NCBI RefSeq assembly: GCF_027923765.1
Contig: NZ_AP026709.1
Location: 186,001 to 250,000 of the forward strand
Direction: 5' to 3'
From: Pseudodesulfovibrio nedwellii
Lineage (GTDB): Bacteria; Desulfobacterota; Desulfovibrionia; Desulfovibrionales; Desulfovibrionaceae
DNA length: 64,000 nt
The first letter of the stretch is position 1, and every line of letters begins with the position of its first letter. Under the pieces are notes generated by a model. The model searched no databases. It was not told the DNA's origin and worked only from the letters and a program-made list of their open reading frames with translations. The position numbers and the translations under genes are program-made. Below are positions 40,363 to 63,470 of the stretch, one piece after another.

Positions 40363-41724
40363 CTAGCATTCAGTGACACTCTGTGCCAGGCCTGCCAATG
40401 ACGTTTCCTTATATTTGCGGGACATGTCTCGGCCCGTTTGGGCCATGGCCTCGATGGCCTTGTCCAGATCGACTCTCTGGTACGATTCGTCTAAGGTCGT
40501 AGCAATGAGATAGGCGTTGTATGCTTTTATGGCGCCCATGGCATTTCGTTCAATGCAGGGGATCTGCACATAACCACCGACCGGATCACAGGTCAGGCCA
40601 AGATGGTGTTCCATGGCGATTTCTGCGGCGTTTTCTGTAACTTGAAAGCGGTACCCACGTGCATAAGCAAGGAGGGCTGCAGCCATGGCTGAGGCTACGC
40701 CAACTTCGCCCTGACATCCGACTTCGGCACCGGAGATGGATGCGTTGTGTTTGCAGAGAAAGCCGATAGCTATAGCGGCAAGAAGACCTTCGTGGAGTTC
40801 TTTTTGCAAGGCTCCCATGTGTCGCTTAAGCATGAATATAATGGAAGGGATGACCCCCGCCGCGCCACATGTTGGAGCCGTGACTACGCAATGGCCGGAG
40901 GCGTTTTCTTCGGAGGCGGCCATGGCGTATGCGTTGAAAGCTTTAACGAATCCCGGTCCTTGAAAATGTTCAGCTTTGGCCTGTTCATACATGACGGCGG
41001 CTTTTCGTTGTAGCCCTATGGGGCCGGGAAGTGCGCCTTTGCTTTGAATTCCCATTTCAACGGCGCGTTCCATAACTTCGACGATGTGATCCAGGCCAGC
41101 ATATATTTCTTCTTCACTCATACCGGTGATGGCTTTTTCATTGGCCAGAATGAGTTCGTGAAGTCGCATGGAGTTGTTTCTCAGATGCTCTTTGAGTTGA
41201 GCCATGGTTTTATATGGATACATAGGCTCACCACGTTTGGGCTCTTTTCTGCCTTCCCAGTGCAGAAATCCTCCACCAATGGAATAGTAAGTGCGTTCAA
41301 GTAGTGTCTTGTCTCCTGCCTTGAGCGAAAATATCATGGTGTTTGAATGTGGGTAATCATGCTGAACGGCATCAAAAATCATGTCACGGGGACAATAGGC
41401 GAGAGCTTTGCCATCGAGGTCCAATTCAAATTCCTGATCCTTGTTGTCAAATTCTTCCAATACATTAGGATGACATGTATCGGGGAGAAAACCGAGCAGG
41501 CCGGACATGATTGCCCGGCGTGTGCCGTGACCTTCACCCGTGGCTGACAGGGAACCGAATAATCGGATGGTCAGTTTATCCGCGCGTAATCTGTCTTCGT
41601 TTGGAAGATTGCGGACAAGTTTCATAAAGTAATAGCCCGCCTTCATAGGACCAATGGTGTGAGAACTGGATGGGCCGGGGCCGATCTTTAAAAGCTGGAA
41701 TATGGATGTCTTGACTGGTGGCAT
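40363..41724 (-). CDS. sdaA: L-serine ammonia-lyase (iron-sulfur type, single chain)
   Basis: 453 residues, the usual length of SdaA/SdaB/TdcG. The beta domain begins [17 protein letters not shown]; the alpha domain has [26 protein letters not shown] and [22 protein letters not shown], whose cysteines ligate the [4Fe-4S] cluster. It makes pyruvate and ammonia from serine. Pyruvate then feeds ferredoxin-linked metabolism. Its place upstream of an amino-acid importer on the same strand suggests linked uptake and use, by inference. Confidence 0.95.
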
Positions 41725-46203: not shown

Positions 46204-46995
46204 ATGAAAATTGCTGTTCCGAGCACGCTTCCCAATTTGGATGGTCTCGTCGAATGCAAGTTGGGTACTGCAGCCTATTTATTAGTGGTAGATACCGAGG
46301 ATATGTCTTTCGAGGTGGTGGAAGGCCCTCCTCGTTCTTCCGGAGCAGGGGCAGGGCTCATGATTTTGACGCAGGTGGTCAACATGGGCGTGCAGGTCGT
46401 TCTTGTGGAATATATTGCTCAAAATATTATCGGGGTTTTAAAAAAACAAGGTATTAAAGTCGTTCCTTCAGTATCCGGCCCTGTTGCTGAGGCGATAGCT
46501 ACGTATATGCAGTCGCGATCGTCCTTGGGTGAGAAGGAAGAGACAACGGATGGCGAAGACGCCGTTTCCAAGCAGGTCGTATGGATTGAAGCTTTGCGTA
46601 AGGGAGGACAGCAGTTCTCTACACTTTTGCCCCGCCTTGTGGGGGTAATTTTGCTTTTAGGGTTGTTTCGTGGGTTTGTCTCGGAACAAACGCTGCTTTC
46701 GTTGTTTTCGAACTCGCCGTTGTATGACGCTGTGTGTGGAGCTTCCATTGGAAGTTTGTTGGCTGGGAATCCCGTGAATAGTTATATCATTGGGAAAAGC
46801 TTGTTGAGTGCGGGCGTGGGAGTCGCCGGGGCAGCGGCTTTGATGTTTGCCTGGGTCAATGTTGGAATCATTCAACTCCCGGCTGAAGTGGCGGCCCTCG
46901 GCATGCGTTTTGCTCTGGTGCGCAATATCGCTGGGTTTATTCTGGCTATTCTCATGTCGTTACTTTTCCTCCTGTTGGAAGGGGGCGTAGTATGA
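46204..46995 (+). CDS. NifX/NafY-like (dinitrogenase FeMo-co biosynthesis) domain fused to a permease half
   Basis: 263 residues. Residues 1-103 match the dinitrogenase iron-molybdenum cofactor biosynthesis domain family: MKIAVPSTLPNLDGLVE, LVVDTEDMSFEVVEG, GAGAGLMILTQVVNMGVQVVLV and VLKKQGIKVVP. After a charged linker (104-135) four or five membrane segments follow, with LLAGNPVNSYIIGKSLLSAGV and MRFALVRNIAGF, as in ArsP/DUF318-type permeases. It overlaps the next permease half by four bases. I infer a metal- or metalloid-linked transporter whose cytosolic domain senses or binds a ligand; substrate unknown. Confidence 0.78.
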   Translation: MKIAVPSTLPNLDGLVECKLGTAAYLLVVDTEDMSFEVVEGPPRSSGAGAGLMILTQVVNMGVQVVLVEYIAQNIIGVLKKQGIKVVPSVSGPVAEAIATYMQSRSSLGEKEETTDGEDAVSKQVVWIEALRKGGQQFSTLLPRLVGVILLLGLFRGFVSEQTLLSLFSNSPLYDAVCGASIGSLLAGNPVNSYIIGKSLLSAGVGVAGAAALMFAWVNVGIIQLPAEVAALGMRFALVRNIAGFILAILMSLLFLLLEGGVV

Positions 46996-47543
46996 GCCAG
47001 AATTCCATTTTCCCTTTTTCTTTGCCCTCAATGGCCGTCATGAGACCGTGGTTATTTCCTTTGGGAGTTAGCTTGCTCTATGGCCTCGGTTTTCTTTTAG
47101 AACCAGAAAACACAGAGCACTCATTACATATCTGTGTAGACATGTTTCAGCAGTTGACGTTGCCCATGCTTTTCGCCGTTGTCATGATGGTGGTCTTTAA
47201 TAGATTCCTGTCCCCAGCTGTGGTCGCTCGTTTTTTAGGGCGCAGTGCTGGTGCCAAGGGGGTCGTGCTGTCTTCTTTGGCTGGAATCTTATCCATGGGA
47301 CCAGTCTATGCGTGGTATCCGCTTTTTAAAACGTTGCGGGATAAAGGCGCATCGGTTTTCCACGTTGCCAATTTTGTCGGCTGCCGTTCCATCAAACCGG
47401 CATTGCTTCCCATTGTGGTAAGCTCTTTTGGCTGGCGATTTACCATACTCTTTCTCTTGATGAGCTTCGTTATAGCTTTGAGTGTAGCCTGCATCGTGAG
47501 TCTGGTTTGCACTGATCATGAGAAAAAGGAATCTGTGAGATGA
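46992..47543 (+). CDS. Permease, second half (ArsP/DUF318-like)
   Basis: 183 residues with about five membrane segments. It has RFLGRSAGAKGVVLSSLAGILSMGPVYAWYPLFK and VANFVGCRSIKPALLPIV, a pattern typical of the small permeases paired with the half above. The ATG overlaps the upstream stop, so the halves are made in step and probably assemble together in the inner membrane. Function unassigned. Confidence 0.78.
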   Translation: MSQNSIFPFSLPSMAVMRPWLFPLGVSLLYGLGFLLEPENTEHSLHICVDMFQQLTLPMLFAVVMMVVFNRFLSPAVVARFLGRSAGAKGVVLSSLAGILSMGPVYAWYPLFKTLRDKGASVFHVANFVGCRSIKPALLPIVVSSFGWRFTILFLLMSFVIALSVACIVSLVCTDHEKKESVR

Positions 47544-47661
47544 AATATCTTTAAAGGCGTATGAATCGAAGGAGAAAGAATTTCCCTTATCTGCATAATT
47601 TTTCAATATACGCCGTAATAGGGCGTCGCATGAGAACAATTAAAAATAAAAAAGAAAAGGG

Positions 47662-47682
47662 ACTTACGAAAAAATCGTAAGT
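47662..47682 (-). terminator. Terminator following the tRNA-Pro remnant
   Basis: ACTTACGA / TCGTAAGT with an A5 (plus strand) loop; on the minus strand the stem is followed by a T-rich tract and lies about 14 bases after the tRNA CCA end. This looks like the original 3' flank of the tRNA gene. Confidence 0.7.
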
Positions 47683-47695
47683 GCCTTGATTTATC

Positions 47696-47740
47696 TGGTT
47701 GGGATGAGAGGATTTGAACCTCCGATCTCTGCGTCCCGAA
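47696..47740 (-). pseudogene. 3' fragment of tRNA-Pro(CGG): attachment-site scar
   Basis: On the minus strand the sequence from the anticodon loop (TTCGGGA, anticodon CGG) to the encoded CCA is tRNA-like: stem half CGCAG, a five-base variable loop, T-arm GGAGG-TTCAAAT-CCTCT, acceptor half CATCCCA, A73, CCA. Upstream of the loop the sequence no longer fits an anticodon stem or D-arm, so the 5' half is missing. An anticodon-loop-to-3'-end duplication is what integration at a tRNA leaves. No integrase is seen nearby. Confidence 0.8.
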
Positions 47741-48020
47741 GACTGAGGGAGGCTCGTTGTACTTTGAAATTGTTGGATTAGTTTTGTAGTAGTCCTCCCC
47801 TTTTGATAATTGTCTTTTAAAAGGAATCGTGAGAGGGGACCGTTTCTTATTAATTTTGGAGTAAAAAAGGTGGGGTTATAGGGAAGGGATTTGACTGTGA
47901 AGTTCTGTCCCAGAGAAAGAGCTAAATCTTCATGCTTACTGTTTTATACCAATTGTGTTGAAAATATATTTAACGGCGTGCCACATCAAAAAAGTGTGTG
48001 TCGCAGAAAAAAGAAAGCGG
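47741..48020. other. AT-rich gene-free interval beside the tRNA scar
   Basis: About 280 bases between the tRNA fragment and the histidine-kinase stop. No frame with a protein-like translation, no clear promoter and no strong hairpin was seen. It may be decayed island DNA. The 120 bases from 47544 to the scar also hold no gene. Confidence 0.5.
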
Positions 48021-49397
48021 TTAACCTGCGGGCAACGTAATTGTCATGTGGAAGCCGGTTTCATTGCTGGCAGCCTGCATGGTTCCTTTGTGTTCTTCGA
48101 CGATTTTTCGAGCAAAGGCCAGGCCGAGACCGGTGCCTTCCACCGTATCATATCCAAGTCTTTTGAATGGGATGAAAATCGTTTCAAGTTCATTTTTCGA
48201 GAGTTGCGGATACGGGTTAGAAATCTTTACGTTAACCGTTTTTTCGTCAGACGTGCAATTGATGGTGATGTCACTATGAGCAGGGCTGTATTTTATAGCG
48301 TTGGCAAGGACATTGCCCACGACCATGGTGATATTTTCCCGGTTGCATAGAAGGGGCGTGATTTCAGTTTCGTTGGAAATGATTGAAAGACTTTTTTCAT
48401 TGATTTGTGGCTGTAGCATTTCCACAATCTGCTTGACCATGTTGGGGATATTAACTGTATCGATACGTGGTGATGCCTTTTGTAAATCAAGTTTGGAAAG
48501 TTTGAGAATCTTGTCGATAAGTCCATCCATGTGGTCGATTTCCTGCTCCATCTTGTGAACGTGTTTTTTGATACCGTCTGTTCGTCCCGAAGCCATGCGT
48601 TCTTCAATGATCTGTTGGGATATACGAATACGGGCCAGTGGGCTACGTAGTTCGTGAGACAGGTTGGCGGTCAGTTCGCGGCTACCTCTGACTATTTTAT
48701 CGAGACTGTTGGCCATATGGTTGAACGCCTTGGCCAGTGTGCCTACTTCATCTTTTCGATTGTCGGCCACACGGGGCGAAAAATCACCTTGGGCGATGAG
48801 TTCGGCGGATGCTGTCAATTTGTTAATGGGTAGGGTGATCATTCGGGAGACCGGAATGAGCAGGAGTGCGGCAATACCAGACATGAGCAGCAGGCCATGC
48901 ATGAGCCATACTTCTTCTTTGCGTTTTTTCCATTCATGGAGAATGTGAATAGACAAAGGCTGCATGGCTGATTCGATTGTGCCTACCATATATAGCAATT
49001 TTTCGTCTTCGTTTCCCATGAGGTAAAGAGAGTTTCCATTGGAAGTGGTTGTTTCAAATTCTGTCTCTTCTGTTGCGATGAGGGTCACTTTTTTAGGGGA
49101 AGGAGCATTGATGACGGTGCCTTGTGCATCCGTCAGCCATGCCTGACCGTTGAAAGAGCCGGCAAAGATATCCAGTACCGAAGCAAGTCGTTGTTGTAAT
49201 TGTGGCGTCATGCTTTTTGTATCACCTATTTCAAGTAGGATGAGCCTTTTGAAGGCCTCAGTGCGTTCGTCGGCATGTCGAGCGAAGGGTGGGCGGATTT
49301 TTCCCAGATGCATCAATATGGCGATGGTCAGGATGGCTGTGCCGAGAACCGCGATAAACGCGAAGAATATTTTGAGATAGAGTCGACTGATCTTCAT
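48021..49397 (-). CDS. Sensor histidine kinase (CpxA-like)
   Basis: 458 residues. Two membrane segments (about 8-28 and 163-183) flank a periplasmic sensor region. HAMP (about 184-236) precedes the dimerisation helix with H-box NLSHELRSPLARIR near 245-260. The ATPase part has NVLANAIKYSP (N-box) and GTGLGLAFARKIVEEH (G-box). It autophosphorylates on the H-box His and passes phosphate to the regulator encoded upstream, whose stop it overlaps by four bases. The signal is probably envelope stress or a toxic compound, given the divergent efflux operon. Confidence 0.92.
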   Translation of the reverse strand: MKISRLYLKIFFAFIAVLGTAILTIAILMHLGKIRPPFARHADERTEAFKRLILLEIGDTKSMTPQLQQRLASVLDIFAGSFNGQAWLTDAQGTVINAPSPKKVTLIATEETEFETTTSNGNSLYLMGNEDEKLLYMVGTIESAMQPLSIHILHEWKKRKEEVWLMHGLLLMSGIAALLLIPVSRMITLPINKLTASAELIAQGDFSPRVADNRKDEVGTLAKAFNHMANSLDKIVRGSRELTANLSHELRSPLARIRISQQIIEERMASGRTDGIKKHVHKMEQEIDHMDGLIDKILKLSKLDLQKASPRIDTVNIPNMVKQIVEMLQPQINEKSLSIISNETEITPLLCNRENITMVVGNVLANAIKYSPAHSDITINCTSDEKTVNVKISNPYPQLSKNELETIFIPFKRLGYDTVEGTGLGLAFARKIVEEHKGTMQAASNETGFHMTITLPAG

Positions 49398-50101
49398 ATT
49401 TCTCCCATGAACATATATCCGGTGCCCCAGACTGTCTTGATCCGTTTGGCGTGGGTCTCATATTGTTTGAGCAGGGCGCGTAGTTTGCTGATGTGAACGT
49501 CTATGCTGCGGTCATACGCCGTGAAGTCTTTGTCCCAAACCATGTCCATGAGTTGGTCGCGGGTCAGGGCTGTGTCCACTTTACTCATAAGGGCCTTGAG
49601 CAGTCGAAACTCTGTAGGGGCCAATTCCAGTTCGTCGGCTTCCACCATGAGTGTTTGGCGAGAGATATTCAGGATAAGCCCTCCTGCGGAAATCGTGGGA
49701 GGGGTGGTCTTGGCATTGGTGATCGCACTTGCGTCGTAGCGGCGGAGTACGGCCTTGATGCGGGCCAATAATTCACGGGGGTTGAATGGCTTTGCAATGT
49801 AGTCGTCAGCGCCTAGCTCCAGGCCAACAATGCGGTCTGTATCTTCTCCCTTGGCGGTGAGCATGATGACGGGCGTGTCGGATGTCATCCGAAGTTCTCG
49901 TAAAACTTCCAGGCCATTTTTCCCAGGCATCATGACATCCAGAATGATCACGCACGGGGAGAGCGTTTTCACAGTCTCTACAGCTTTTACGCCGGAGGGA
50001 AGGGTGTGCACAGTGAAATCGTATTCTTCGAGATATTCCACGACGAGCTCGCGAAGTCTTTCATCGTCATCGATAATCAGAACTGGTCCTTTTGCGTCCA
50101 T
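49394..50101 (-). CDS. OmpR/CpxR-family response regulator
   Basis: 235 residues. The receiver domain has IIDDDERL (acidic pocket Asp11-13), phospho-acceptor Asp55 in IILDVMMPGKNG, and the switch Thr/Lys in MLTAKGED and AKPFNPREL. The C-terminal winged helix (about 135-235) ends KTVWGTGYMF. The ATG at 50101 opens the receiver domain; the frame stays open to 50302 but the extension is not family-like. It likely controls the divergently transcribed RND operon, whose start is 146 bases away. Confidence 0.93.
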   Translation of the reverse strand: MDAKGPVLIIDDDERLRELVVEYLEEYDFTVHTLPSGVKAVETVKTLSPCVIILDVMMPGKNGLEVLRELRMTSDTPVIMLTAKGEDTDRIVGLELGADDYIAKPFNPRELLARIKAVLRRYDASAITNAKTTPPTISAGGLILNISRQTLMVEADELELAPTEFRLLKALMSKVDTALTRDQLMDMVWDKDFTAYDRSIDVHISKLRALLKQYETHAKRIKTVWGTGYMFMGEI

Positions 50102-50247
50102 GCTTTTTTCTAGTCCGTAAGTTGTACGTTTGGAAAGGGGCCGTGAAGAAGTTTTACATCCTTTAACATCTTTTATCATAAGCTTTATACTTTCTCCATT
50201 TTTGTGCCGTAAGCAGTGGGTAACGAAAATACTTTTGGAGAAATGCC

Positions 50248-51708
50248 TTGAAAGAAATTCGATCAATATCAAAAACGGCAATTGCGGTGCTTTTGACTGC
50301 AATTGTGGCCTTTATGGTGGGATGTTCCCCATTTCGACCAGATCCGCGAGTTGAGCCGATGGCTCCATTGCCGGAATCTTTTGCTTTGTATTCCGATTCT
50401 GAACAGTTGAGCGGTAAGTGGTGGGAGTCCTTTGGCTGCGAAGAATTGAATGGCATGGTGGAAGACGCTCTGGTTGCTAATTTTGATGTTTTAATTGCCT
50501 GGGCACGACTCAAGCAGGCAGGGGCCACGGCTATTCAGTCTCGAGCTGACAAGTATCCGACTTTGAATGTGACGGGAGATTATTCTCATTCGAGTTCGTA
50601 TACCAAGAAGGCGACGGACAAGGAAACCACCTCTGATACGCATAGTGTCGGTTTGCAGGCAGGATATGAATTGGACCTTTGGGGTCGGATCGAAGCCGAA
50701 TCCCAGTCTGGCAATCTCGATTATTTGGCGAGTCGTGAAGATTTGAGCACCGCGGCCATGACCGTGGCTGGAGAAGTGGTCTCGCGCTGGGTTGAGATTC
50801 AAACTGAGCGGCAAAAGAAAAGAATACTGACTGAACAAGTTAAGACTAACGAGACATATCTTGAGCTTATCGAATTACGTTTTCGAAATTCTCTTGCCAC
50901 AGCTCTGGACATCTATCAACAACGGCAAACTTTAGCGAAAGTGACTGCCCAGATTCCGCCGGTGGAGTCAAAGGAGCAACTGTTGCTTCACGAATTGGCG
51001 CTGCTCATGGGCAAGCCTGCCGGGGCTGTCACCGTAGCTGATGCCGATTTACCCGAGATGGCCGATTTGCCAGGCCTTGGATTACCTGCCGATCTTTTGG
51101 CCAATCGTCCTGATGTCAGGTCCGCAGGTTTTGCGCTTCAGTCGGCTGACTGGTCGGTGACGGCAGCAAAGGCCAATCGTCTGCCTTCCTTGAGCCTGAC
51201 GGGTACCGCTGAATATACCGGTGCACAGTTGGGAACTCTTTTTGATAATTGGATGCTTTCCTTGGCCACCTCGGTGGTGGGGCCGATCTTTGATGGTGGT
51301 TCCCGGAAAGCTGAAGTGGAAAAACAGCAGGGTATTGTTGACGAGCGTCTGGCCTCGTATCGAGAGACCGTCTACACGGCGTTCAAGGAAGTCGAAGACG
51401 CTCTGGTGAAGGAAAAATGGCAAAAGCAGTATATTACGGCGCGTTTGGCCCAGTTGGAAGCGGCCAAAACGAGTTTGAGTGAAGCCGTTTCCCGGTATGC
51501 ACAAGGGTTGGATGATTATCTGCCGGTCCTGAGCGCTTTGTTGTCCGTGCAGGAACTGGAAGTTTCCATTGCGGACGAACGGACCGATCTTGTTCTCTAC
51601 CGCGTAGCCTTGCATCGGGCTCTTGGCGGTAGCTGGACCGACTCCTTGATCACTCCTGATGCAAATAACCAAAAGACAAATGACATCAACGTTAGCAACG
51701 AGGGATAA
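50248..51708 (+). CDS. RND efflux outer-membrane lipoprotein (NodT/OprM family)
   Basis: 486 residues. Signal with lipobox MVGC (Cys near residue 26). It then shows GKWWESFGCEELN, ARLKQAGATAIQSRADKYPTLNVTGDYS, YELDLWGRIEAES, LANRPDVRSAGFALQSADW and VGPIFDGGSRKAEVEKQQ, all typical NodT-family blocks. It forms the trimeric outer-membrane channel of the pump. The start is a TTG with TGGAG seven bases upstream. First gene of the three-gene efflux operon, two bases before the adaptor gene. Confidence 0.93.
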   Translation: MKEIRSISKTAIAVLLTAIVAFMVGCSPFRPDPRVEPMAPLPESFALYSDSEQLSGKWWESFGCEELNGMVEDALVANFDVLIAWARLKQAGATAIQSRADKYPTLNVTGDYSHSSSYTKKATDKETTSDTHSVGLQAGYELDLWGRIEAESQSGNLDYLASREDLSTAAMTVAGEVVSRWVEIQTERQKKRILTEQVKTNETYLELIELRFRNSLATALDIYQQRQTLAKVTAQIPPVESKEQLLLHELALLMGKPAGAVTVADADLPEMADLPGLGLPADLLANRPDVRSAGFALQSADWSVTAAKANRLPSLSLTGTAEYTGAQLGTLFDNWMLSLATSVVGPIFDGGSRKAEVEKQQGIVDERLASYRETVYTAFKEVEDALVKEKWQKQYITARLAQLEAAKTSLSEAVSRYAQGLDDYLPVLSALLSVQELEVSIADERTDLVLYRVALHRALGGSWTDSLITPDANNQKTNDINVSNEG

Positions 51709-51710
51709 TT

Positions 51711-53003
51711 ATGCGTACTTTACTCATCAAGGCACGGGCTATCTTCGGTCTCAAGGTCATTATTCCGGTTTGTGTTGTTATACTTGCTGCAGCCGGTGCG
51801 TATGCAACAGTGGTGACAGCTCCTAAAGCAAAGAAACGACCTCCTGTCTTTATTGCTCCTGCTGTAGACACCAAGGTTATTTCCTGTGGAACGTATCGGG
51901 TTTGGCTTCCAGTCATGGGGACGGTGACCGCTGCCCGATCCATCACGCTTGAAGCGCGAGTTTCTGGTGAAGTCGAATCAATCAGTTCAATTTTTACACC
52001 CGGCGGTTATTTTGAAAAGGGAGAGCAGATTCTTACCATCAGCCCAGAGGATTATCAGCTTGCGCTTCGTGAAGTGCAGGCTGAAGTTACGACTGCCGAG
52101 TATGATCTGAAGGTTGAGCAAGGGTATCAGACCGTGTCTGCCCGGGAGTGGAAATTACTCAGTGGTTCCACAAAAGGAACTGAAGCCGAATCCGAACTTG
52201 CCTTGAGAAAACCGCATTTGGCTAAAGCTCAGGCTGAATTGCAAGCGGCCCAAGCCAAGCTTCGTCAGGCGATGCTTGATTTGGAACGTACCAAAATTTC
52301 TGCGCCGTTTTCCGCCATGGTTCAAGAAAAGAGTGTTGACATCGGAGCTATGATTTCTCCTCAGGAATCCCTTGCTACACTTGTTGGGACCGATGAATTC
52401 TGGATCGAGGCGTCTGTGCCGGTGGATCGTTTGCATTGGATCAATATTCCGTCCGCCGGAACCGTGGATGGCTCCAAGGCTCGAATCTCCTCGGGCAGCG
52501 GCGTCGGTCTGTCGGTTCGTGAAGGGCAGGTGGTTCGTTTATTGCCTTCTCTGGAGAGCGAAGGGCGAATGGCCCGCCTCTTGATATCGGTTAAGGACCC
52601 GTTGAATATTGCGGGGCGACCAAACGTCAAGCCGCTTCTTTTGGGGAGTTATGTTTCTGTTGAAATCGATGGTGGTGTGTTGGAAAACGTGATGACTATT
52701 CCGCGTTCAGCCTATCATGACAATGATAAGGTTTGGATTATGACCGAAGCCAATACTCTTGAGATCCGGTCGCTGAAATCCGTATGGCGAGATGAGGGAA
52801 CCATTGTTGTTGCCGAAGGGCTCGTACCAGGTGAAGTCGTTGTAACTTCAGCGCTTTCGACTCCGTTGCAGGGGATGAGACTGCGGAGTATCTCGACGGC
52901 AGTGGATACCAATGTCGTTGAAAAGCCAAACCGTGTCGGTGTTGATGCCGGCAAGGGCAAAGGCCCGGGCAAGGGACAAGGCGGAGGAATGAACAATGGT
53001 TAA
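51711..53003 (+). CDS. RND efflux periplasmic adaptor (HlyD/AcrA-like)
   Basis: 430 residues. One N-terminal membrane segment (about 12-35) without a clear cleavage site, then a lipoyl half (VTAARSITLEARVSGEVESIS), a coiled-coil hairpin (about 115-185), the second lipoyl half (TKISAPFSAMVQEKSVDIGAMI) and a beta barrel. The C-terminus is a Gly/Lys-rich tail. It joins the inner-membrane pump to the outer channel. The gene overlaps the pump gene by eight bases. Confidence 0.92.
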   Translation: MRTLLIKARAIFGLKVIIPVCVVILAAAGAYATVVTAPKAKKRPPVFIAPAVDTKVISCGTYRVWLPVMGTVTAARSITLEARVSGEVESISSIFTPGGYFEKGEQILTISPEDYQLALREVQAEVTTAEYDLKVEQGYQTVSAREWKLLSGSTKGTEAESELALRKPHLAKAQAELQAAQAKLRQAMLDLERTKISAPFSAMVQEKSVDIGAMISPQESLATLVGTDEFWIEASVPVDRLHWINIPSAGTVDGSKARISSGSGVGLSVREGQVVRLLPSLESEGRMARLLISVKDPLNIAGRPNVKPLLLGSYVSVEIDGGVLENVMTIPRSAYHDNDKVWIMTEANTLEIRSLKSVWRDEGTIVVAEGLVPGEVVVTSALSTPLQGMRLRSISTAVDTNVVEKPNRVGVDAGKGKGPGKGQGGGMNNG

Positions 53004-56000
53004 CAATGTTCAGAAACATAAGGGTCCTATCGGTTGGATGGCGGGGAATTCGGTTGCCGCCAATCTGCTTATGGTGGTGCTTCTTGTCGGTGGTCTTGTG
53101 TTCGGTTTGCAGATGAAGCAGGAAGTCTTCCCCGAGTTCTCCTTGGATACGGTTTCGGTGAGTGTCTCGTACCCTGGAGCAAGTCCTGAAGAGGTAGAGC
53201 AGGGAGTCATACTGGCTGTGGAAGAAGCCGTGCAGGGGCTGGAAGGCGTGAAGGAAGTGACGTCAACGGCATCTGAAGGTGCTGGCAATGTTGTTGTCGA
53301 GGCACTTGATGGAACAAATTTGCAAACGCTCGCTCAGGATATCAAGACTGAAGTGGATAGAATCTCTTCTTTTCCTGAAGAAGCCGAGGACCCAGTGATT
53401 GCCGAAGCCTCTATGAAACGGCAAGTTCTCACTGTGATGGTTTATGGCGATCAGGACGATACCGTTCTGCGAAGCCTGGCAGAAGAGTTGCGGACGACAT
53501 TAATCACTGACCCCGGAGTGACTCAGGTTGATCTGAATGAGGTTAGCGATCTTCAGATTTCTATCGAAGTGTCGCAGGAAAAATTGCGCGCTCACAACTT
53601 GACGCTCACCGAAGTGGCCAGCCGTCTGCGTGAAGCCTCTGTGGATATGCCGGGAGGAGGCATCAAAGCCGGTTCTGGGGAAATTCTTGTGCGCATGAAA
53701 GAGCGGCGTGATTATGGACAGGATTTTGCTCGGACGCCCATTGTCACAGGGAGCGATGGTACACAGGTTTTATTGGAGGACATTGGTACGGTTGTCGATG
53801 GATTTGCCGATAATGATATTATCACGACATATAATGGTCAGCCTGCCGTTCGCCTAGATGTCTATCGGGTGGGAGATCAAACTCCTATTTCCGTCTCCGA
53901 GGCCGTACACAATGGCGTAGAGGCGTTTTCGACTCGGCTACCCGGTAATGTTTCCTTGAAAATTCTCGATGATAGTTCGGAAGTATTCAGTCAGCGTATG
54001 GATTTGCTTTTGAAGAATGGATACATGGGGCTGGGTTTGGTCTTTGTTTTTCTTGCTTTGTTTCTTGAAAGGCGACTCGCTTTTTGGGTCGCTATGGGTA
54101 TTCCCATTTCCTTTTTCGGATGTTTTTTGATTCTGCCGTTTTTTGACATCAGTATTAATATGATCACCATGTTCGCTTTTCTTATTTCACTTGGAATTGT
54201 GGTCGATGACGCTATCGTGGTCGGTGAGAATGTATTTACCATGCGGCAGCAGGGGATGCCACCGCTTAAAGCCGCCATTGAGGGGGCCCGTCGCATAGCC
54301 ATGCCGGTGACTTTTAGCGTATTGACGAACATTGTAGCTTTCATGCCTTTACTGTTTTTACCCGGGATTATGGGCAAGATATATTGGTCTATCCCCATTG
54401 TAGTCATTAGTGTTTTTGTTGTTTCCTTGGTTGAAAGTCTGTTTGTCTTGCCCGCGCATCTTGGTCATTTGAGAGATGGGCATCGCAGTCGTATCATGCG
54501 GTGGATTGATAGGTATCAGCAGCGAATTGCAGATGGGCTCCTTCGATTTATTAATAGGATATATAGGCCCATTCTCGACGTTTGTGTGCAGTGGCGCTAT
54601 TTGACCATGGCTGTGGGCGTTGGTTTGCTCGTTTTGACGGGTGCATATGTCGCCAGTGGCAGGCTTGGGTTTACACTTATGCCCAAAGTGGAATCCGATT
54701 ATGCTTTCGTGACTGCTGAGTTGCCGTATGGATCTTCGGCAGCCAAGTCAGAGGTTGTTCGAGACCGCCTCATTGCCGCCGCTCGTGTGGTGGCGGACAA
54801 TAACGGTGGTGGTAGCTTGGTCGAGGGCATGGATTCCAAAATTGGTGGTGCCGGGCGTGATATTTCAGGCAGTCATGTTGTTAAGCTGAAAGTCTATTTA
54901 ACCGCTGCGGACGTGCGTCCCATTTCTACGGATGAATTCGTGGAGCAATGGCGCAAGGAAACCGGAGAAATAGTCGGTTTGGAGGCCATTTCTTTTGAAT
55001 CTGATCGTGGTGGGCCTGGGTCGGGGAGCTCGTTGGAATTTGAATTGAGTCATTCGGATGTCACCGTGCTTGAGTCTGCCGCCGCAGAACTCGCGGCGGG
55101 ATTGTCCTATTACCCGCGGGTTAAGGATGTTGATGACGGCTTTTCGCCGGGCAAGGAACAACTCGACTTTACACTCACTCCCACAGGAAAAAGCCTTGGC
55201 TTGACCGCTCAGGGGGTGGCTGATCAGGTGCGCGCTGCCTATTATGGTGTGGAAGTTTTGCGTCAGCAACGTGGTCGCAACGAAATTAAGGTTGTTGTTC
55301 GTCGCCCTGAAAGCGAACGTATTTCCGAGTTTGATTTTGAAGAGCTGATGATTATGGCGTCCTCAGGCAGTGAAATTCTGTTGCGGGAAGCGGTGAATAT
55401 TGAGCGAGGTCGAGCGTATACGGTTATTAAACGCCGTGATGGCCGCCGGGTTTTGTCGGTATCTGCGGACGTGAGTCCTCGTAATCAGTCTACGCAGGTT
55501 ATGAATAGCGTATTTAAAGAAATCATTCCTGACCTCAAGGCTAAATATCCGGGCTTGTCCTGTGTAATGGATGGCAAACAAGCAGATATGACCGAGTCCA
55601 CTGAGAGTTTGATGGTGGGGCTGCTTATGGCCATGCTGTGCATCTATGCTCTGCTGGCGATCCCCTTCAAGAGTTATGTACAGCCATTAATAATAATGAT
55701 TTGTATTCCCTTCGGGGCGGTCGGTGCCGTTTTTGGTCATGTGATCATGGGGTATTCCATCAGTCTGATGAGCCTGCTCGGTATCGTGGCTTTGTCTGGT
55801 GTGGTAGTTAATGATTCGTTGGTTTTTATTGACTATGCCAACCGTATGCGTAGTGACGGACAGTGTGCCCATGATGCTGTGATGTCAGCCGGAACAGCTC
55901 GTTTTAGAGCTATTCTGTTGACTACATTGACCACTTTTGGCGGTTTGGCCCCCATGATTCTTGAAACGTCAAGACAGGCTCGGTTCCTTATTCCCATGGC

Positions 56001-56157
56001 ATTGTCGTTGGGTTTTGGTATTTTGTTTGCCACAGGGATTACTCTGATTCTTGTTCCGTCCATGTATATGATTCTGGAAGACTTCAAGCAGAAGCTTTCC
56101 CGATTTTTTTCCCGGCGGGAGGCAGAACGTCTGGATTCTGTAGAAGATGGTATCTGA
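52996..56157 (+). CDS. RND efflux pump, inner-membrane transporter
   Basis: 1053 residues, AcrB/MexF superfamily with 12 membrane segments. It begins WMAGNSVAANLLMVVLLVGG and has VSVSYPGASPEEVEQGVI, FLISLGIVVDDAIVVGENVF in TM4 with the proton-relay Asp pair, and the TM10-12 block LLGIVALSGVVVNDSLVFIDYANR. Substrates of this type are drugs, detergents or solvents; none can be assigned. Expression is probably driven by the divergent two-component system. A 21-bp terminator stem follows. Confidence 0.94.
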   Translation: MVNNVQKHKGPIGWMAGNSVAANLLMVVLLVGGLVFGLQMKQEVFPEFSLDTVSVSVSYPGASPEEVEQGVILAVEEAVQGLEGVKEVTSTASEGAGNVVVEALDGTNLQTLAQDIKTEVDRISSFPEEAEDPVIAEASMKRQVLTVMVYGDQDDTVLRSLAEELRTTLITDPGVTQVDLNEVSDLQISIEVSQEKLRAHNLTLTEVASRLREASVDMPGGGIKAGSGEILVRMKERRDYGQDFARTPIVTGSDGTQVLLEDIGTVVDGFADNDIITTYNGQPAVRLDVYRVGDQTPISVSEAVHNGVEAFSTRLPGNVSLKILDDSSEVFSQRMDLLLKNGYMGLGLVFVFLALFLERRLAFWVAMGIPISFFGCFLILPFFDISINMITMFAFLISLGIVVDDAIVVGENVFTMRQQGMPPLKAAIEGARRIAMPVTFSVLTNIVAFMPLLFLPGIMGKIYWSIPIVVISVFVVSLVESLFVLPAHLGHLRDGHRSRIMRWIDRYQQRIADGLLRFINRIYRPILDVCVQWRYLTMAVGVGLLVLTGAYVASGRLGFTLMPKVESDYAFVTAELPYGSSAAKSEVVRDRLIAAARVVADNNGGGSLVEGMDSKIGGAGRDISGSHVVKLKVYLTAADVRPISTDEFVEQWRKETGEIVGLEAISFESDRGGPGSGSSLEFELSHSDVTVLESAAAELAAGLSYYPRVKDVDDGFSPGKEQLDFTLTPTGKSLGLTAQGVADQVRAAYYGVEVLRQQRGRNEIKVVVRRPESERISEFDFEELMIMASSGSEILLREAVNIERGRAYTVIKRRDGRRVLSVSADVSPRNQSTQVMNSVFKEIIPDLKAKYPGLSCVMDGKQADMTESTESLMVGLLMAMLCIYALLAIPFKSYVQPLIIMICIPFGAVGAVFGHVIMGYSISLMSLLGIVALSGVVVNDSLVFIDYANRMRSDGQCAHDAVMSAGTARFRAILLTTLTTFGGLAPMILETSRQARFLIPMALSLGFGILFATGITLILVPSMYMILEDFKQKLSRFFSRREAERLDSVEDGI

Positions 56158-56186
56158 TGGCGTTTGATGTGTTGAAAGATTGATTC

Positions 56187-56232
56187 CACAAAAAAAGGAT
56201 TCCAAATGGATATTTGGAATCCTTTTTTTGTG
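56187..56232. terminator. Terminator of the RND operon
   Basis: Perfect 21-bp stem from CACA-A7-GGATTCC to GGAATCC-T7-GTG around a four-base loop, 29 bases after the pump stop. Confidence 0.95.
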
Positions 56233-57095
56233 CCTGGGAAGCGATTTCGAGATGATGTCCGCTATGAGGAGCGTTTTGTGTTTAATAATGTTTTTGTCAT
56301 GGTTGTGTGTGACACCTGCCATGTTCAACACGGCAGGCGGCGCGGCGGGATTCTCACGGATAGAGAAATCGGCCATGGCTAGATATTTTTGCCCTTCGGC
56401 AACCAGCATGGACGATTAGGCAGTGGGCGTGGTTCGCGAGACTGCGTCCACGCTCGCCATGGGCACCTCAAAGTGGCAGCCGTGGAAATGCACGGCGTAA
56501 TGGCCGCGGAAAACACCCGATAGCCAAAGCAAGAGGCAACAGCGACTTGGTCAAGGCAAAGGCATGAGTGTACCTGCCGCCTTGTTGGTGTCAGTTGTCT
56601 GCTGACTGATTTTTTTGAGCGGTGCCGTGATTATGGCGATGGACATAGATGCCATGACGCTGAGAATTTCCATGGAGTCAGAATAGCCCTATGAAAATTT
56701 TAGTTCAGGAATTTGTGGGAAGGGTAACGTCTTTGAGCTGAACTAATTGCGCCTGTATTCGTTTGAAGGCCTGGCTGCATGTCCCCGTGTATGCTTGAAG
56801 CGGAGCAGGGCGCTCTTATTGTTTTTTAGAAGTTTTCGGTAATCCAAAGTGAGCGAGCAATCCATCCCTGACAGGTTGGCGCACAGAGAATCATCAGAAG
56901 TGAAGGTCCCTAGGACCATCCGTGGCGTGTAAAGCTGGAAAGCGAGCTGTTCTTCATATTTGGACGATGTCGTTTGGTCTTTAGGGTGCAAATTCCACCT
57001 TAAAGTGTGGCCAGTTTTTAAACCCACTTCTGCCACCTTTACCTACCCATTCTTATTTCACCGAATGTACCATTAATAAACTATTGATTTTGTGG
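56233..57095. other. 0.86-kb stretch without a convincing gene
   Basis: Two weak frames exist: a plus-strand one of about 50-79 residues near 56180-56419 with a hydrophobic start, and a minus-strand one of 97 residues at 56743-57036 starting GTG. Neither has a good ribosome-binding site or a recognisable family. The part from about 56420 to 56560 is clearly more GC-rich than its surroundings and carries stops in all frames I translated. The stretch looks like decayed sequence between the efflux operon and the Sia-like locus. Confidence 0.5.
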
Positions 57096-57124
57096 TTGAC
57101 AATTGAAGGCCACCTTAATATTCG
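57096..57124 (+). promoter_or_regulatory. Promoter of the Sia-like operon
   Basis: TTGACA at 57096-57101 (perfect), 17-base spacer, TATTCG at 57119-57124. The start site would fall near 57131, inside the palindromic box that follows. Confidence 0.65.
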
Positions 57125-57141
57125 TTGAAAACGATTTTCAA
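57125..57141. promoter_or_regulatory. Fur-like box
   Basis: TTGAAAACGATTTTCAA, a 7-3-7 inverted repeat directly after the -10. It matches the deltaproteobacterial Fur consensus WTGAAAATNATTTTCAW, as I remember it, with one mismatch (C for T). Its position over the start site fits repression by iron-loaded Fur. Confidence 0.65.
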
Positions 57142-57188
57142 TATCATTAATTTGCGATAGCAAGCATGGCTGTATGAGGTGTCAAATA

Positions 57189-57362
57189 ATGATTTCAGAC
57201 GGAAGTATGGAAACCGTACAGAATGATACGCAGTTAAGGATTTTTCAAAGGGTAAAGGCGCGAGTTCGCCTTGAGTCTAAGCAGATGATTAAAGTTGCAT
57301 CGGTAGCAGTTCTTTTTATGGTGATAATACATGGGGCCATAATCATTATGCCGGTGAATTAA
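57189..57362 (+). CDS. 57-residue single-pass membrane protein
   Basis: The first ~35 residues are soluble and charged (METVQNDTQLRIFQRVKARV), then one hydrophobic segment (about 37-53) ends the protein at MPVN. The ATG at 57189 has GAGGTG seven bases upstream; another ATG at 57174 has none. It is the first gene after the Fur-like promoter and lies one base before the GGDEF gene, so it is probably translated and part of the operon. No family recognised. Confidence 0.6.
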   Translation: MISDGSMETVQNDTQLRIFQRVKARVRLESKQMIKVASVAVLFMVIIHGAIIIMPVN

Positions 57363-57363
57363 T

Positions 57364-58551
57364 ATGACCGTGATAAACAAATTATACGATTGTAGTATGG
57401 AAAAAGAAGGTTTTCAGAAAGAAGAGCGAGTACTTCATCTGGCGATGAAGTCGCTTGAACGAAACGAAAGTCAGGGCCAGAGCAGCGATCCCGCATTTAC
57501 CGCATTGGTGAAAGGGTACAACAAGCTTTTGCGACAGAGTAGGCGGTTAATTTCAATGGGTGATCGGATGCAGCAGTCTCTTACTGAGGTCAATCGTAAC
57601 CTTGAGATCAGTGAAGAGAGGTATCGTGGGATATTTGAAAATGTGACTGAAGGTGTATTCAGGTGTGGTTCAGCCGGTGAAATAGTTGAAGCCAACTCGG
57701 CCATGGCGGTGATGTTTGGGTATTCCAGTCCTGTAAATTTCTTGGGAGTCGTTAACAACATCCGCGATTTGTTTTGTCATGAAATTGATTTTTCTCGTTA
57801 CATGAGCCTTTTGGTCTCAGGAGAGGTGCACCGTATGGAGGCCAAAGTGTCAGGCCTGGATGGTGTGGTCTTGTGGGCGGAAATAAGTGCATGCGTAATG
57901 CGTGAAGAGAGTGAAGTCATCTCGTGTGGTGGTGTTGTCGGAATACTGGCCGATGTCACCGAACGTAAGCATATGACGGAAGAGATGTGCCGTTTGGCGA
58001 GGACAGATAGCCTTACAGGGTTGTGGAATCGAGGGTACTTCATGGAGTTGGCATTGCGTGAAGTCGCTCGTAGTAAGCGAAGCAACAAGTTATCCTTATT
58101 GATTGTTGATGCAGACTACTTCAAGGGTGTCAACGACGCGTATGGTCATGATGTAGGAGATAAAGCCCTTGTCGCCATGAGTCGTGCTCTTCTTGATTCT
58201 GTTCGAGAAGTGGATGTGGTGGGGCGATTAGGTGGTGAAGAGTTCGTCGTCCTTTTGCCGGATGCCACAGCGAGCGATGCTTGTTGTGTGGCAGAACGTA
58301 TACTGGAAGGGGTTCGACAAATCGTCGTTGATTCGGTTGATAATCATATATCCATGACTGTGAGTGTCGGGGTGGCTTCAATGGAAGACATTGGAGACAC
58401 TTTAGATGGATTGCTCAAATTTGCTGATATTGCGCTTTACGCAGCCAAAAAAAATGGTCGCGATAGAGCGGAAGTGTATCGCCGATCAAGTTGTTCTTGC
58501 AATGTGGAGCCCCCTGTTTTTGCTGGAGAGAGCAAAGGGGACGTGAAATGA
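57364..58551 (+). CDS. siaD: PAS-GGDEF diguanylate cyclase, SiaD-like
   Basis: 395 residues, no membrane segment. Residues 20-82 form a helical stalk with YNKLLRQSRRLISMGDRMQ, as in cyclases that pair with SiaC. PAS is at about 83-200 (ERYRGIFENVTEGVF). GGDEF spans about 210-375 with DSLTGLWNRGYF, active site GGEEF (290-294) and product-inhibition site RxxD (Arg281-Asp284). It makes c-di-GMP from GTP. In Pseudomonas SiaD is switched on by unphosphorylated SiaC; the Pseudomonas protein has no PAS as far as I recall, so this one may take a second input. The stop overlaps the next start (ATGA). Confidence 0.85.
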   Translation: MTVINKLYDCSMEKEGFQKEERVLHLAMKSLERNESQGQSSDPAFTALVKGYNKLLRQSRRLISMGDRMQQSLTEVNRNLEISEERYRGIFENVTEGVFRCGSAGEIVEANSAMAVMFGYSSPVNFLGVVNNIRDLFCHEIDFSRYMSLLVSGEVHRMEAKVSGLDGVVLWAEISACVMREESEVISCGGVVGILADVTERKHMTEEMCRLARTDSLTGLWNRGYFMELALREVARSKRSNKLSLLIVDADYFKGVNDAYGHDVGDKALVAMSRALLDSVREVDVVGRLGGEEFVVLLPDATASDACCVAERILEGVRQIVVDSVDNHISMTVSVGVASMEDIGDTLDGLLKFADIALYAAKKNGRDRAEVYRRSSCSCNVEPPVFAGESKGDVK

Positions 58552-59756
58552 ACTTAAAACTCAGTAGGATCAAAGTGAGGCTCAATTGGAGCGTGGAGCG
58601 CAAGATGATTGTCCTGCTGTTTTTACCTATCGTTGTTTTTCCACTTGTCATGTTTGTTTTGGTTCACTCTCAAAGTGCTGGGGTTACGACGAATTTTCTT
58701 GTTGGACAGGTTGTTCTTTCCATAATTCTGCTTGTGCCTTTTTCGAAGTGGATGAGCCATGTCATTGCTTTAAGGAATATTAAGGAACTCAATGAGCAAT
58801 GCCAACTCCTTCAGCAAGGGAATTATGATCAGCTTAATTTGCCTGATATAGGTGCCGACGGGCATGACTTTCTTGAACTCAGAAGAAACATGCACAGGAT
58901 GGGGCACGCCATTGCCATTCGAGAGCAGAAATTACAAAGAGCCATAGCAGATCTTGCGGCTGCTCATAGACAGATTGAAGAAAGTTTGGCTTGTGCCAGC
59001 CTGATACAGACTTCTTTTCTCCCTAGTCAGGTAAATTTGTATGATTATATCCCGAATCATTTTCTTGTTTGGGACCAGCGGGATACCGTGGGTGGGGATG
59101 CTTACTGGTTGAAGCGCACGGAGAAAGGTTTTTTTCTTGGGGTCATCGATTGCACCGGACACGGCGTGCCTGGGGCGTTTATGACACTTATCGTTATTTC
59201 TTTGCTGGAAAAAGCCTCGGCGGATCGGACTGTCAGTCCTGCAGCAATTCTTGGCCGAATGAATCTTCTTATTAAGGATGCGCTTGGGCAGAACGATCAG
59301 GATGCGAAATCCGACGATGGTATGGATTGCGCGTTGTGTCACGTTGATATCTCTGGTCGTTCCGTCACTTTCGCTGGTGCGAATTCTCCTCTGTATGTTT
59401 TGGGAGATGAGGGGGCCAAGTGCATCAAAGGAGAGCGTTGTGGCCTTGGATACGTCCGGTCGCCTCGGGAATTTGTTTTTACGGATGTTGTTATCCCGTT
59501 TACCGGCCGCACACGGTTTTATCTCATTTCGGATGGATATGTTGATCAGGTTGGTTTTGAGAAAGGATTTTCTTTTGGGCGGCGGCGGTTCATGTCGTTC
59601 ATAGAGAAAAAGTGGGAAGCTCCGATTGCGGGGCAAGGTCATGAACTCATGCAGACATTGGGGAAGTTTCAGGGGAGCGAACCCCGTCGGGATGATGTGA
59701 CTGTTTTGGGTTTTGAATTCAAAGGGGAAGATCTAAATGAGAACGAATTTATTTAA
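58548..59756 (+). CDS. siaA: Membrane PP2C/SpoIIE-type phosphatase, SiaA-like
   Basis: 402 residues. Two membrane segments (about 20-40 and 50-68) are joined by a loop of only some ten residues, so there is no large periplasmic sensor. A HAMP-like linker and coiled coil (75-150) follow. The SpoIIE phosphatase (about 155-395) has GGDAYW (Asp184), IDCTGHGVPGAF (Asp201), LISDGYVDQVG and RRDDVTVLG, the metal-binding aspartates. By analogy it dephosphorylates SiaC and so activates the cyclase. The ATG overlaps the siaD-like stop; AGGGG precedes it. The start of the siaB-like gene lies inside its 3' end. Confidence 0.85.
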   Translation: MNLKLSRIKVRLNWSVERKMIVLLFLPIVVFPLVMFVLVHSQSAGVTTNFLVGQVVLSIILLVPFSKWMSHVIALRNIKELNEQCQLLQQGNYDQLNLPDIGADGHDFLELRRNMHRMGHAIAIREQKLQRAIADLAAAHRQIEESLACASLIQTSFLPSQVNLYDYIPNHFLVWDQRDTVGGDAYWLKRTEKGFFLGVIDCTGHGVPGAFMTLIVISLLEKASADRTVSPAAILGRMNLLIKDALGQNDQDAKSDDGMDCALCHVDISGRSVTFAGANSPLYVLGDEGAKCIKGERCGLGYVRSPREFVFTDVVIPFTGRTRFYLISDGYVDQVGFEKGFSFGRRRFMSFIEKKWEAPIAGQGHELMQTLGKFQGSEPRRDDVTVLGFEFKGEDLNENEFI

Positions 59757-60291
59757 ATATTACGAAGAAATGAAACAAGAAGGTGTGATTCTATATTTTA
59801 ATGGTCCTGTCTCTCAGTCTATCGTGGAAGGGTTGGCCGAACTTATGCGGTCCAAAATGCGTGCAGAGGATGCGGGGATGGGGTCAGTACAGCGTGTTTT
59901 TGCTGTCTTGGTCGAGCAGATGCAAAATATCGTACGGTATTCATCCGAGCGACAAGAGGACAATATGAATCAACAAGGAGAGATCGCCCATGGTCAGATT
60001 GTCGTTGGCCGTGAGGAGAATGATCGTTTCTTCGTGGCATGTGGGAATAAGGTGAATTCTGCTGATTGTGAAGAGCTTTCAGAGTATATTCAGACGCTTC
60101 GTTCAATGAGCAAGAGTGAGTTGAAAGTTTATTACAGGGAGCGCAGGAAAGGCCCTGATTGTGTCACGAATAAAGGTGCCGGACTGGGGTTTGTCGAGAT
60201 GGCGCGTAAGGCATCTTCTCCTATGGATTTCGATATTGTCCCATTGGATGGCGAGACCTCATTTTTTTCTATGAAAGTCGTGACACAATAG
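59737..60291 (+). CDS. siaB: SiaB-like protein kinase
   Basis: 184 residues, GHKL-type ATPase fold of the SiaB family. The N-box is VLVEQMQNIVRYSSE (Glu60, Asn64) and the G-box is NKGAGLGFVEMARK (about 143-156). By analogy with Pseudomonas SiaB it phosphorylates SiaC, opposing the SiaA phosphatase and so lowering c-di-GMP. It overlaps the phosphatase gene by 20 bases and ends 10 bases before siaC, so the stoichiometry is likely linked. Confidence 0.85.
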   Translation: MRTNLFKYYEEMKQEGVILYFNGPVSQSIVEGLAELMRSKMRAEDAGMGSVQRVFAVLVEQMQNIVRYSSERQEDNMNQQGEIAHGQIVVGREENDRFFVACGNKVNSADCEELSEYIQTLRSMSKSELKVYYRERRKGPDCVTNKGAGLGFVEMARKASSPMDFDIVPLDGETSFFSMKVVTQ

Positions 60292-60301
60292 GAGCTTAGA
60301 T

Positions 60302-60688
60302 ATGACGAAATATTGCGTTGAGGCGACCAATTCGTCGCCACATATTCGTTTTGATCCTGATGAGATGTCCTTTGAGATCAAAGGAGAATCCTATCCGGAA
60401 AATTGCTGGGCTTTTTATAGTCCGATGTTTGAGTGGCTAGAGGGTTTCTTTGATTCCATCAATGGCGATCGTGTCGAGATTGATATGGAGATTATTTATT
60501 TTAACTCTTCCTCTTCTAAAACTTTTATGGATTTTTTTGAGATGCTTGATGGCTATGCCGAAAAGGGTAGAAATATCGTTGTGAACTGGCGATATCATGA
60601 AGAAAATGAGTCAGCCATGGAGTGCGGTGAAGAGTTTATGGGAGACGTTGAACAGATCAAATTTAACCTTGTCGAATTCGCTAATTAG
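60302..60688 (+). CDS. siaC: SiaC-like regulatory phosphoprotein (DUF1987)
   Basis: 128 residues. The start NSSPHIRFDPDEMSFEIKGESYPEN is the DUF1987 pattern, and IIYFNSSSSKTFMDFFEML (residues 64-82) holds the switch site, where Ser69/Ser70 align near the phosphorylated Thr68 of Pseudomonas SiaC. Unphosphorylated SiaC binds and activates the partner cyclase. The fold resembles anti-sigma-antagonist (STAS) proteins, so the module works as a partner switch. GGAG(CTTAGAT) precedes the ATG. Confidence 0.87.
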   Translation: MTKYCVEATNSSPHIRFDPDEMSFEIKGESYPENCWAFYSPMFEWLEGFFDSINGDRVEIDMEIIYFNSSSSKTFMDFFEMLDGYAEKGRNIVVNWRYHEENESAMECGEEFMGDVEQIKFNLVEFAN

Positions 60689-60698
60689 CGGGGAATAT

Positions 60699-61679: not shown

Positions 61680-61685
61680 GTGATC

Positions 61686-62993: not shown

Positions 62994-63008
62994 TGATAAG
63001 GAGGCAAG

Positions 63009-63470
63009 ATGAAGATTGAATGGACTGTGCAAAAAAAAAGGGGCAACCATCGCCCTGTACTGAAGTATTCTATCGAATTGGAATCGTTTGAAGTGGATTT
63101 GGCCGTTCCTCATGTGGTCGTAGACGCTGCCATTGCCCGGCCACCTTCTTCTTGGCGTTCGTTTTGTTACCCAGGTGAAGATGAACGAGGTAATGGGACA
63201 CTTGAATGGTATCGGCTTATGACCCCATCGCATAAAATGGGAAGAATCTCAGAATCCCTGACGCTGCCTTGGCGTGGGCAATCAAATGATTTTGTTGATG
63301 TAAAGGCCGCTTTTGAACGTCTTCGACATAGTTTTGAAACGATGTTGAAGAATGCTTATGAAAGTGCTCCTTTGCAGATTGTTGAAAATTTGGATTTGTC
63401 CGAAGGAACGCGTAAGCATATTGCCAGTGGTGTCGCATCTGCGAGAATATTGTCAGCAGTAGGATTTTAG
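63009..63470 (+). CDS. Hypothetical protein at the end of the Sia/MoxR operon
   Basis: 153 residues, soluble. A beta-rich N-half (KIEWTVQKKRGNHRPVLKYSIELE) leads to a helical C-half (FERLRHSFETMLKNAYESAP, then LSEGTRKHIASGVASARIL). I do not recognise a family. It begins 15 bases after the VWA stop with AAGGAGG before the ATG, so it is almost certainly in the same operon. Its stop overlaps the convergent ABC gene by four bases. Confidence 0.75.
   Translation: MKIEWTVQKKRGNHRPVLKYSIELESFEVDLAVPHVVVDAAIARPPSSWRSFCYPGEDERGNGTLEWYRLMTPSHKMGRISESLTLPWRGQSNDFVDVKAAFERLRHSFETMLKNAYESAPLQIVENLDLSEGTRKHIASGVASARILSAVGF

Follow-up and report, generated by a model that had tools for sequence, protein, structure and literature searches.

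The stretch analysed here (the window) is 64,000 nt long and corresponds to G000:C1:186001–250000, part of a 3.76-Mb single-contig genome, G000. At 47.7 kb it holds the 3′ half of a tRNA-Pro(CGG) gene, termed half A, with permease genes to the left and signalling, efflux and uptake genes to the right. The features are given below in window coordinates, with four-fold differences to G051, the closest other species examined; G042 is a second genome of the source species.

40363–41724, minus: chromosomal anchor gene of 453 aa, conserved; matched in all 36 genus genomes
46204–47543, plus: permease pair adjoining half A on its left, retained by G042 and G051; four-fold differences 67/205
47641–47685, minus: tRNA terminator, apparently of the ancestral type (GGCACTTACG...CGTAAGT), from its sequence
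47696–47740, minus: half A, displaced tRNA-Pro(CGG) 3′ half, distal attachment-site copy; 44/45 identical to the query half
47741–47850, minus: decayed right attachment arm of an element, from arm sequences; the homology of G000:233684–243031 to G051 passes through it
48021–50302, minus: imported two-component system (TCS), histidine kinase and response regulator (Pfam); four-fold differences 3/361
50248–56157, plus: imported OEP-HlyD-RND efflux operon (Pfam); four-fold differences 49/1040
56158–57031, no strand: stretch with short ORFs only, end of the block shared with G051 (from block ends and ORFs)
57033–63657, no strand: imported GGDEF-SpoIIE-DUF6272-MoxR-VWA block, the "Sia-like locus" (Pfam); four-fold differences 65/873
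63467–64000, minus: start of an ABC/TonB-receptor/CobW uptake cluster that extends to G000:256.2 kb (Pfam)

Half A and the array to its right

Half A, 45 nt long, begins with the 5′ edge of the anticodon loop (TTCGGGA...) and runs through CCA; an earlier note on this DNA had likewise described a fragment from anticodon loop to CCA. That note placed the tRNA half and its terminator at 47662–47760. Its identification was right, but its right edge lies ~20 nt too far out: homology ends at 47740, and element DNA lies beyond. The terminator, judged by eye, is a hairpin with a T-run at 47641–47685. It differs at one stem position from the intact hairpin of G051, and its type also flanks displaced halves in G051 and G011 and the intact tRNA in several relatives. 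Neither ARAGORN nor Rfam (at gathering scores) calls a tRNA in the window. An intact tRNA-Pro(CGG) gene lies 83.5 kb right of half A, at G000:317152–317228 on the minus strand (E=4.7e-24 to the query). Another displaced 3′ half, half B, lies 31.7 kb to the right, at G000:265374–265418 (E=3e-22). All three have the same orientation. Because G000 contains both an intact gene and half B, co-oriented with half A, we rejected chance similarity; a decayed independent tRNA gene was rejected too. These data confirm half A as a tRNA-Pro(CGG) 3′ half that was displaced and has its own terminator. A possible decayed half was also seen by eye at window ~45930, beside a 198-aa gene; we make no claim for it.

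From left to right, the array reads: chromosome, half A, 31.7 kb without integrase, half B, a 51.8-kb prophage, the intact tRNA and cheB. The earlier note took half A for the border of a lost or distant genomic island. A border it is, but of an island neither lost nor distant. The tRNA-Pro(CGG) gene and integrase anticipated within about 100 kb to the right both exist (at 83.5 and 31.7 kb), although the integrase belongs to the prophage.

The interval between half B and the tRNA (G000:265418–317196) is a predicted temperate tailed prophage: between its attachment copies lie genes for integrase, repressor, packaging and structure. Its integrase (PF00589, 265448–266809) adjoins half B. Of 10 other prophage ORFs that we scanned against PHROGs, one has no match and two have matches solely in families of unknown function; the families found include a Bet/RecT-like annealing protein, repressor, helicase loader, terminase, head-tail adaptor/portal, tail and internal virion proteins. 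The arm repeat GGCACCC occurs three times beside half B and twice past the tRNA terminator. The idea that this integrase is part of half A's DNA was rejected: it lies on the prophage side, where the arm repeats match those of the tRNA end. Terminase identity to phages is ~47–50% among the matches listed. In having an integrase, a CI-like repressor, a Bet/RecT-like protein, a terminase and a portal-type protein, and in restoring the tRNA 3′ end, the element resembles known temperate prophages targeted to tRNA genes; it differs in being stacked on an older integrase-less interval. One prophage ORF of 3068 aa (G000:C1:306970–316176; L011:4971–14177) carries an inorganic-pyrophosphatase-type domain and large polyvalent protein domains.

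Further cargo of the 31.7-kb interval consists of an ABC/TonB-receptor/CobW/AraC cluster followed by a DUF3450-ExbB-ExbD-TonB-TPR cluster (Pfam). Within the Sia-like block, the VWA gene is of the DUF2201 type and the MoxR gene of the MoxR-type AAA (Pfam). At E≤1e-20, the solute-binding-protein gene of the uptake cluster finds a match in 6 of the 36 genus genomes, G042 and G051 not among them. No recombinase was found among 29 of the 31 ORFs of at least 90 aa (Pfam) and no integrase by the integrase HMM; the best tblastn match to 14 integrases had an E of 0.57. The interval ends in GCTACCC at half B and in a decayed GGTTCCC-like arm at half A, whose counterpart in G051 reads GGTCCCC / GGTTCCC / GGGGAACC in arm-site spacing. 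We rejected a third half hidden in the interval, as an nhmmer profile finds only A, B and the tRNA in G000 at E<1. With ends of different arm types and no internal half, the 31.7 kb is not one clean element, and we read the differing arms as a fusion of at least two. The interval is a composite, and the integrase beyond it marks a second element, the prophage. Several hallmarks of a tRNA-targeted island are present: a 3′ fragment in direct orientation at the far border, the intact tRNA opposite, a synteny break at the fragment in relatives, and imported content. A cognate integrase is found in the adjacent prophage and not in the 31.7 kb, so we file the latter as a remnant or composite rather than a complete island.

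Attachment sites and integrase-less intervals in the genus

The tRNA query matched in all 36 genus genomes, with at least one displaced half besides in 17 (E≤1e-10); those of G003 and G009 are on contigs other than the tRNA's. A profile search adds weaker half copies, including one of 33 nt in G005. The tRNA-Pro(CGG) site is an integration hotspot in the genus. Well-preserved halves begin at TTCGGGAC in the anticodon loop, and several copies are altered there. Williams (2002) reportedly described a preference of integrases for fixed sublocations within tRNA genes, of which the anticodon loop is one. Moving outward in G050, identity to the query half is 100, 87 and 80%; an outward fall is also seen in G045, G046 and G041, as far as compared, and not in G051. 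Nearly every half has a terminator downstream, the truncated G005 half being without one. A scan of genome_contigs with the tRNA half gave four stretches, and viral_contigs held no exact match. Among the publications found on Pseudodesulfovibrio genomic islands, none concerns this site, to judge by titles and the openings of abstracts.

Two neighbours of these sites are recorded here. In G005:C108 (L076), a tRNA-Leu(UAA) lies at ~18161–18248, in the ~0.5 kb between the 33-nt half and the intact tRNA-Pro. In G009:C55 (L090):5733–6386, an integrase of another kind (PF00589) sits beside the displaced half.

In nine elements, repeats that follow the proximal terminator recur in the distal arm, there mostly also inverted. 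The motifs below were picked by eye from the very sequences in which they were then counted.

GGCACCC: G000 prophage
GGTAATAC: G017 (no inverted copy)
GGTTACA: G010
TTATCC: G023, G046_1
GTCACA: G046_b, G022_a, G002_a, G020_1

GTCACA is present in G022_a and G020_1 as single direct copies. Type-2 elements have GCTAAC repeats at the proximal end only, and in several intervals the ends are unmatched.

Among 21 intervals, a set that excludes prophage-sized intervals with integrases beside the half, the integrase HMM found an integrase in 6 and none in 15. Thirteen of the 15 have two borders, and 11 of these are distinct, G000_E1 and G042_E1 being one unit and G022_a and G046_b another. The HMM is not fully sensitive: it missed the half-side integrase of G009, which Pfam recognises, and for this reason Pfam and tblastn were added. 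No integrase was found in the 15 by tblastn with 14 integrases at E<0.2, and no recombinase by Pfam scans of the larger ORFs, which covered all but the 1117-aa ORF of G020_2, an antisense ORF in G050_1, the ORFs of G003c17_a and certain small ORFs.

Some integrase-less intervals hold a single gene. Four (G022_a, G046_b, G002_a and G020_1) are bounded left and right by GTCACA arms; attachment sites at each end without an integrase are the mark of cis-mobilizable elements. A 0.9-kb cassette with a 172-aa ORF occurs in two species (G022 and G046), with 4/66 four-fold differences between them, versus 700/1426 in the left flank and 79/161 in the right. A 2.5-kb GTCACA interval carries an RT-Toprim I-C retron-type gene and a 1.3-kb one a 307-aa ORF; for the 172-aa and 307-aa proteins, Pfam and PADLOC gave nothing. 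A search of 247 genomes of the order for the GTCACA arm pattern, which is narrow enough to miss the decayed G020 copy, gave hits in three, all of them known cassettes. No integrase-bearing element with GTCACA arms was found. A purT interval shared by G045 and G050 shows 40/207 four-fold differences, versus 942/1634 and 230/358 in flank rows. Its inner boundaries differ between the two genomes, and it therefore gives no evidence of a precise unit. Another integrase-less interval, G050:C1:1330186–1342987, carries an [FeFe]-hydrogenase gene, HydF, two radical-SAM genes and a lyase.

Novelty in this system lies above all in the tiny cassettes that combine matched arm repeats with the absence of an integrase. 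Our tentative suggestion is that tRNA-Pro(CGG) acts as an integron-like platform, at which integrase-less cassettes of 0.9–2.5 kb are inserted and spread by integrases acting in trans, one helper per arm-repeat class. The cassettes, often of one gene, might then each bring a complete attachment site of tRNA half, own terminator and matched arm repeats, a proposal we hold just as loosely. The chance is not far short of even that the integrase-less intervals are ordinary islands whose integrase was deleted after integration. Deletion fusions would leave unmatched ends like those of the 31.7-kb interval, G050_1, G050_2 and G045_b, and the lack of an integrase-bearing GTCACA element fits as well; yet the compact 0.9-kb cassette carries matched GTCACA arms in both of its species and shows few four-fold differences (4/66) against 700/1426 in the left-flank rows. 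The arm-repeat classes provide a set for testing whether integrase-less cassettes use borrowed integrases.

Arrays of this kind are not new, tandem tmRNA islands with integrase-less members being known from Dehalococcoides. According to McMurdie et al. (2011, PMC3146451), those ssrA islands are tandem and bounded by ssrA repeats, and of 31, 16 have an integration module and 15 do not. Both systems are tandem at a tRNA-like gene, with 3′-end copies as bounds, variable cargo, and members lacking integration modules. The Dehalococcoides islands use a serine recombinase and a 20-bp tmRNA gene repeat, whereas here we find tyrosine recombinases, a 45-nt half with an element-borne terminator, and arm repeats kept in some integrase-less members. 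Tycheposons, as described in PMC10872708 and PMC11389934, are likewise tyrosine-recombinase elements with cargo at tRNA genes, although we claim no membership. CALIN and integron cassette arrays, as outlined in PMC11389934, also consist of integrase-less gene cassettes that would need an integrase in trans; the site here differs in being a tRNA 3′ half with tyrosine-recombinase arm repeats.

Imported blocks and chromosomal flanks in relatives

The anchor gene is present in the tRNA-Pro flanks of G011, G016, G021, G022 and G024. On the other side, a cheB-like gene adjoins tRNA-Pro in 22 of 23 flanks retrieved from relatives; in the remaining one, from G020, the tRNA is at the end of its contig.

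G042 is 99.7% identical to G000 over 220385–242317. It lacks G000 242318–257935 (15.6 kb), with 2.1 kb there that holds most of a TonB-receptor gene, and is 99.0% identical over 257936–265423, to half B. A different integrase-bearing element of 11.2 kb replaces the prophage, and identity is 99.6% from the tRNA rightward. The shared block thus ends at G000:242317 (window 56317) for G042 and at 243031 for G051. At window 56317 (G042:956932) and G000:257936, the interval is rearranged within one species; near these breakpoints there are, by eye only, short sequences like insertion-sequence ends.

In G051, left homology breaks off at the crossover base, 233740, beyond which lies a type-2 integrase element. 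This break, found at 47.7 kb where the earlier note had proposed comparing synteny with relatives, agrees with its view that chromosome lies to the left and element DNA to the right, although the left neighbourhood is itself variable. The chromosome of G051 has 9.3 kb extra at 231.9 kb, G011 has no permease beside the fragment, and the permease lies apart from tRNA-Pro in the remaining relatives that match it well. Conservation of the fragment here in all relatives, which the note recognised as a point against an island border, is not seen; the fragment is nonetheless common to G042 and G051 and is therefore older than the source species. The extra DNA of G051, left of the permeases (G051:C1:998810–1008094), carries a DUF3450-ExbB-TonB-like cluster ~72% identical to that between A and B in G000.

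The TCS-RND block (G000 233684–243031) lies 51 kb further on in G051, with 97.8% nt identity, and the intact tRNA follows 2.2 kb past it. The shared segment starts at the tRNA half, and in G051 the homology begins in another displaced half with a different terminator. Four-fold differences in this block are 52/1401 (3.7%), versus 451/1570 (28.7%; 10 rows) in the left flank, 585/1926 (30.4%; all 12 rows, two probably antisense) in the right flank and 32.7% in the permeases. At 3.7% versus 29–33% around it, the block is therefore imported. At E≤1e-200, G050, G011 and G020 lack a match to the RND gene; G045 has one of 75% at another locus, and relatives further off have matches of 57–77% elsewhere. 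The Sia-like block lies at a different locus in G051 (G051:2236804–2243427; 96.7% nt identity), and 7.4% of four-fold sites differ. The low four-fold divergence indicates that both blocks were horizontally acquired. The earlier note had raised import for both, and the data bear it out: silent-site divergence of the two-component/RND operon is about one-eighth that of its neighbours, and the VWA gene of the Sia-like locus has no match in G042 at E≤1e-30.

Half A could be a scar and both blocks could still have arrived later, by homologous recombination or other transposition. For the Sia-like block this is plausible, with its copy at another G051 locus and block ends (242317 and 243031) that match no tRNA half. 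For TCS-RND, the G051 homology starts in a tRNA half and arm, outside which the terminators differ, as site-specific integration predicts; exchange by homologous recombination, instead of two integrations, could also have taken place. For the two blocks together, we consider later arrival unlikely. We also considered that the type-2 element of G051 integrated into the displaced half A. The outer half of G051 is perfect and the inner one decayed, which does not favour serial integration, yet serial integration at the tRNA yields the same structure and better fits the low TCS-RND divergence.

Origin of half A

Taking together the anatomy, the synteny breaks and the small number of silent differences in the TCS-RND and Sia-like blocks, half A is very probably the original tRNA 3′ end, displaced by serial element integration and with imported cargo to its right. 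Half A and its terminator would have been the original chromosomal 3′ end of tRNA-Pro(CGG). A tyrosine-recombinase element would have crossed over in the anticodon loop. It would have moved the old half outward and left the tRNA with a replacement 3′ half followed by the element's own terminator. The displacement would later have happened at least once more, with the tailed prophage, producing half B. The cargo right of half A would then comprise the TCS-RND efflux operon, the Sia-like block and the TonB/ABC uptake clusters. As the array presumably grew at the tRNA, half A is the outermost and probably the oldest detectable scar. We infer these recombination events and the order of arrival, and the first element would since have lost its integrase and inner end. 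Some observations run against serial displacement: the 31.7 kb lacks an integrase, its ends are unlike, the order of decay is reversed in G051, and the permease lies away from tRNA-Pro in other relatives with good permease matches. That half A is instead a stray tRNA duplication with no integration history, as the lack of an integrase next to it might suggest, is scarcely credible, because well-preserved copies share a crossover point, own terminators and arm repeats, displaced halves occur in 17 of 36 genus genomes, and it is contradicted by G051, where synteny breaks exactly at the half.

With the corrections given above, the reading in the earlier note is supported. The scar itself is ordinary biology, here well documented through import between species. 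Serial displacement accounts for variation in efflux, signalling, metal-uptake and other genes at one locus in a genus of sulfate reducers, and the displaced halves serve as a rough record of successive arrivals. A GGDEF-SpoIIE-MoxR-VWA block, or its VWA gene, was also observed between the anchor and the tRNA-Pro site or half in G016 (L082), in G003 (L086, C11) and at G004:C1:2099576–2100895.
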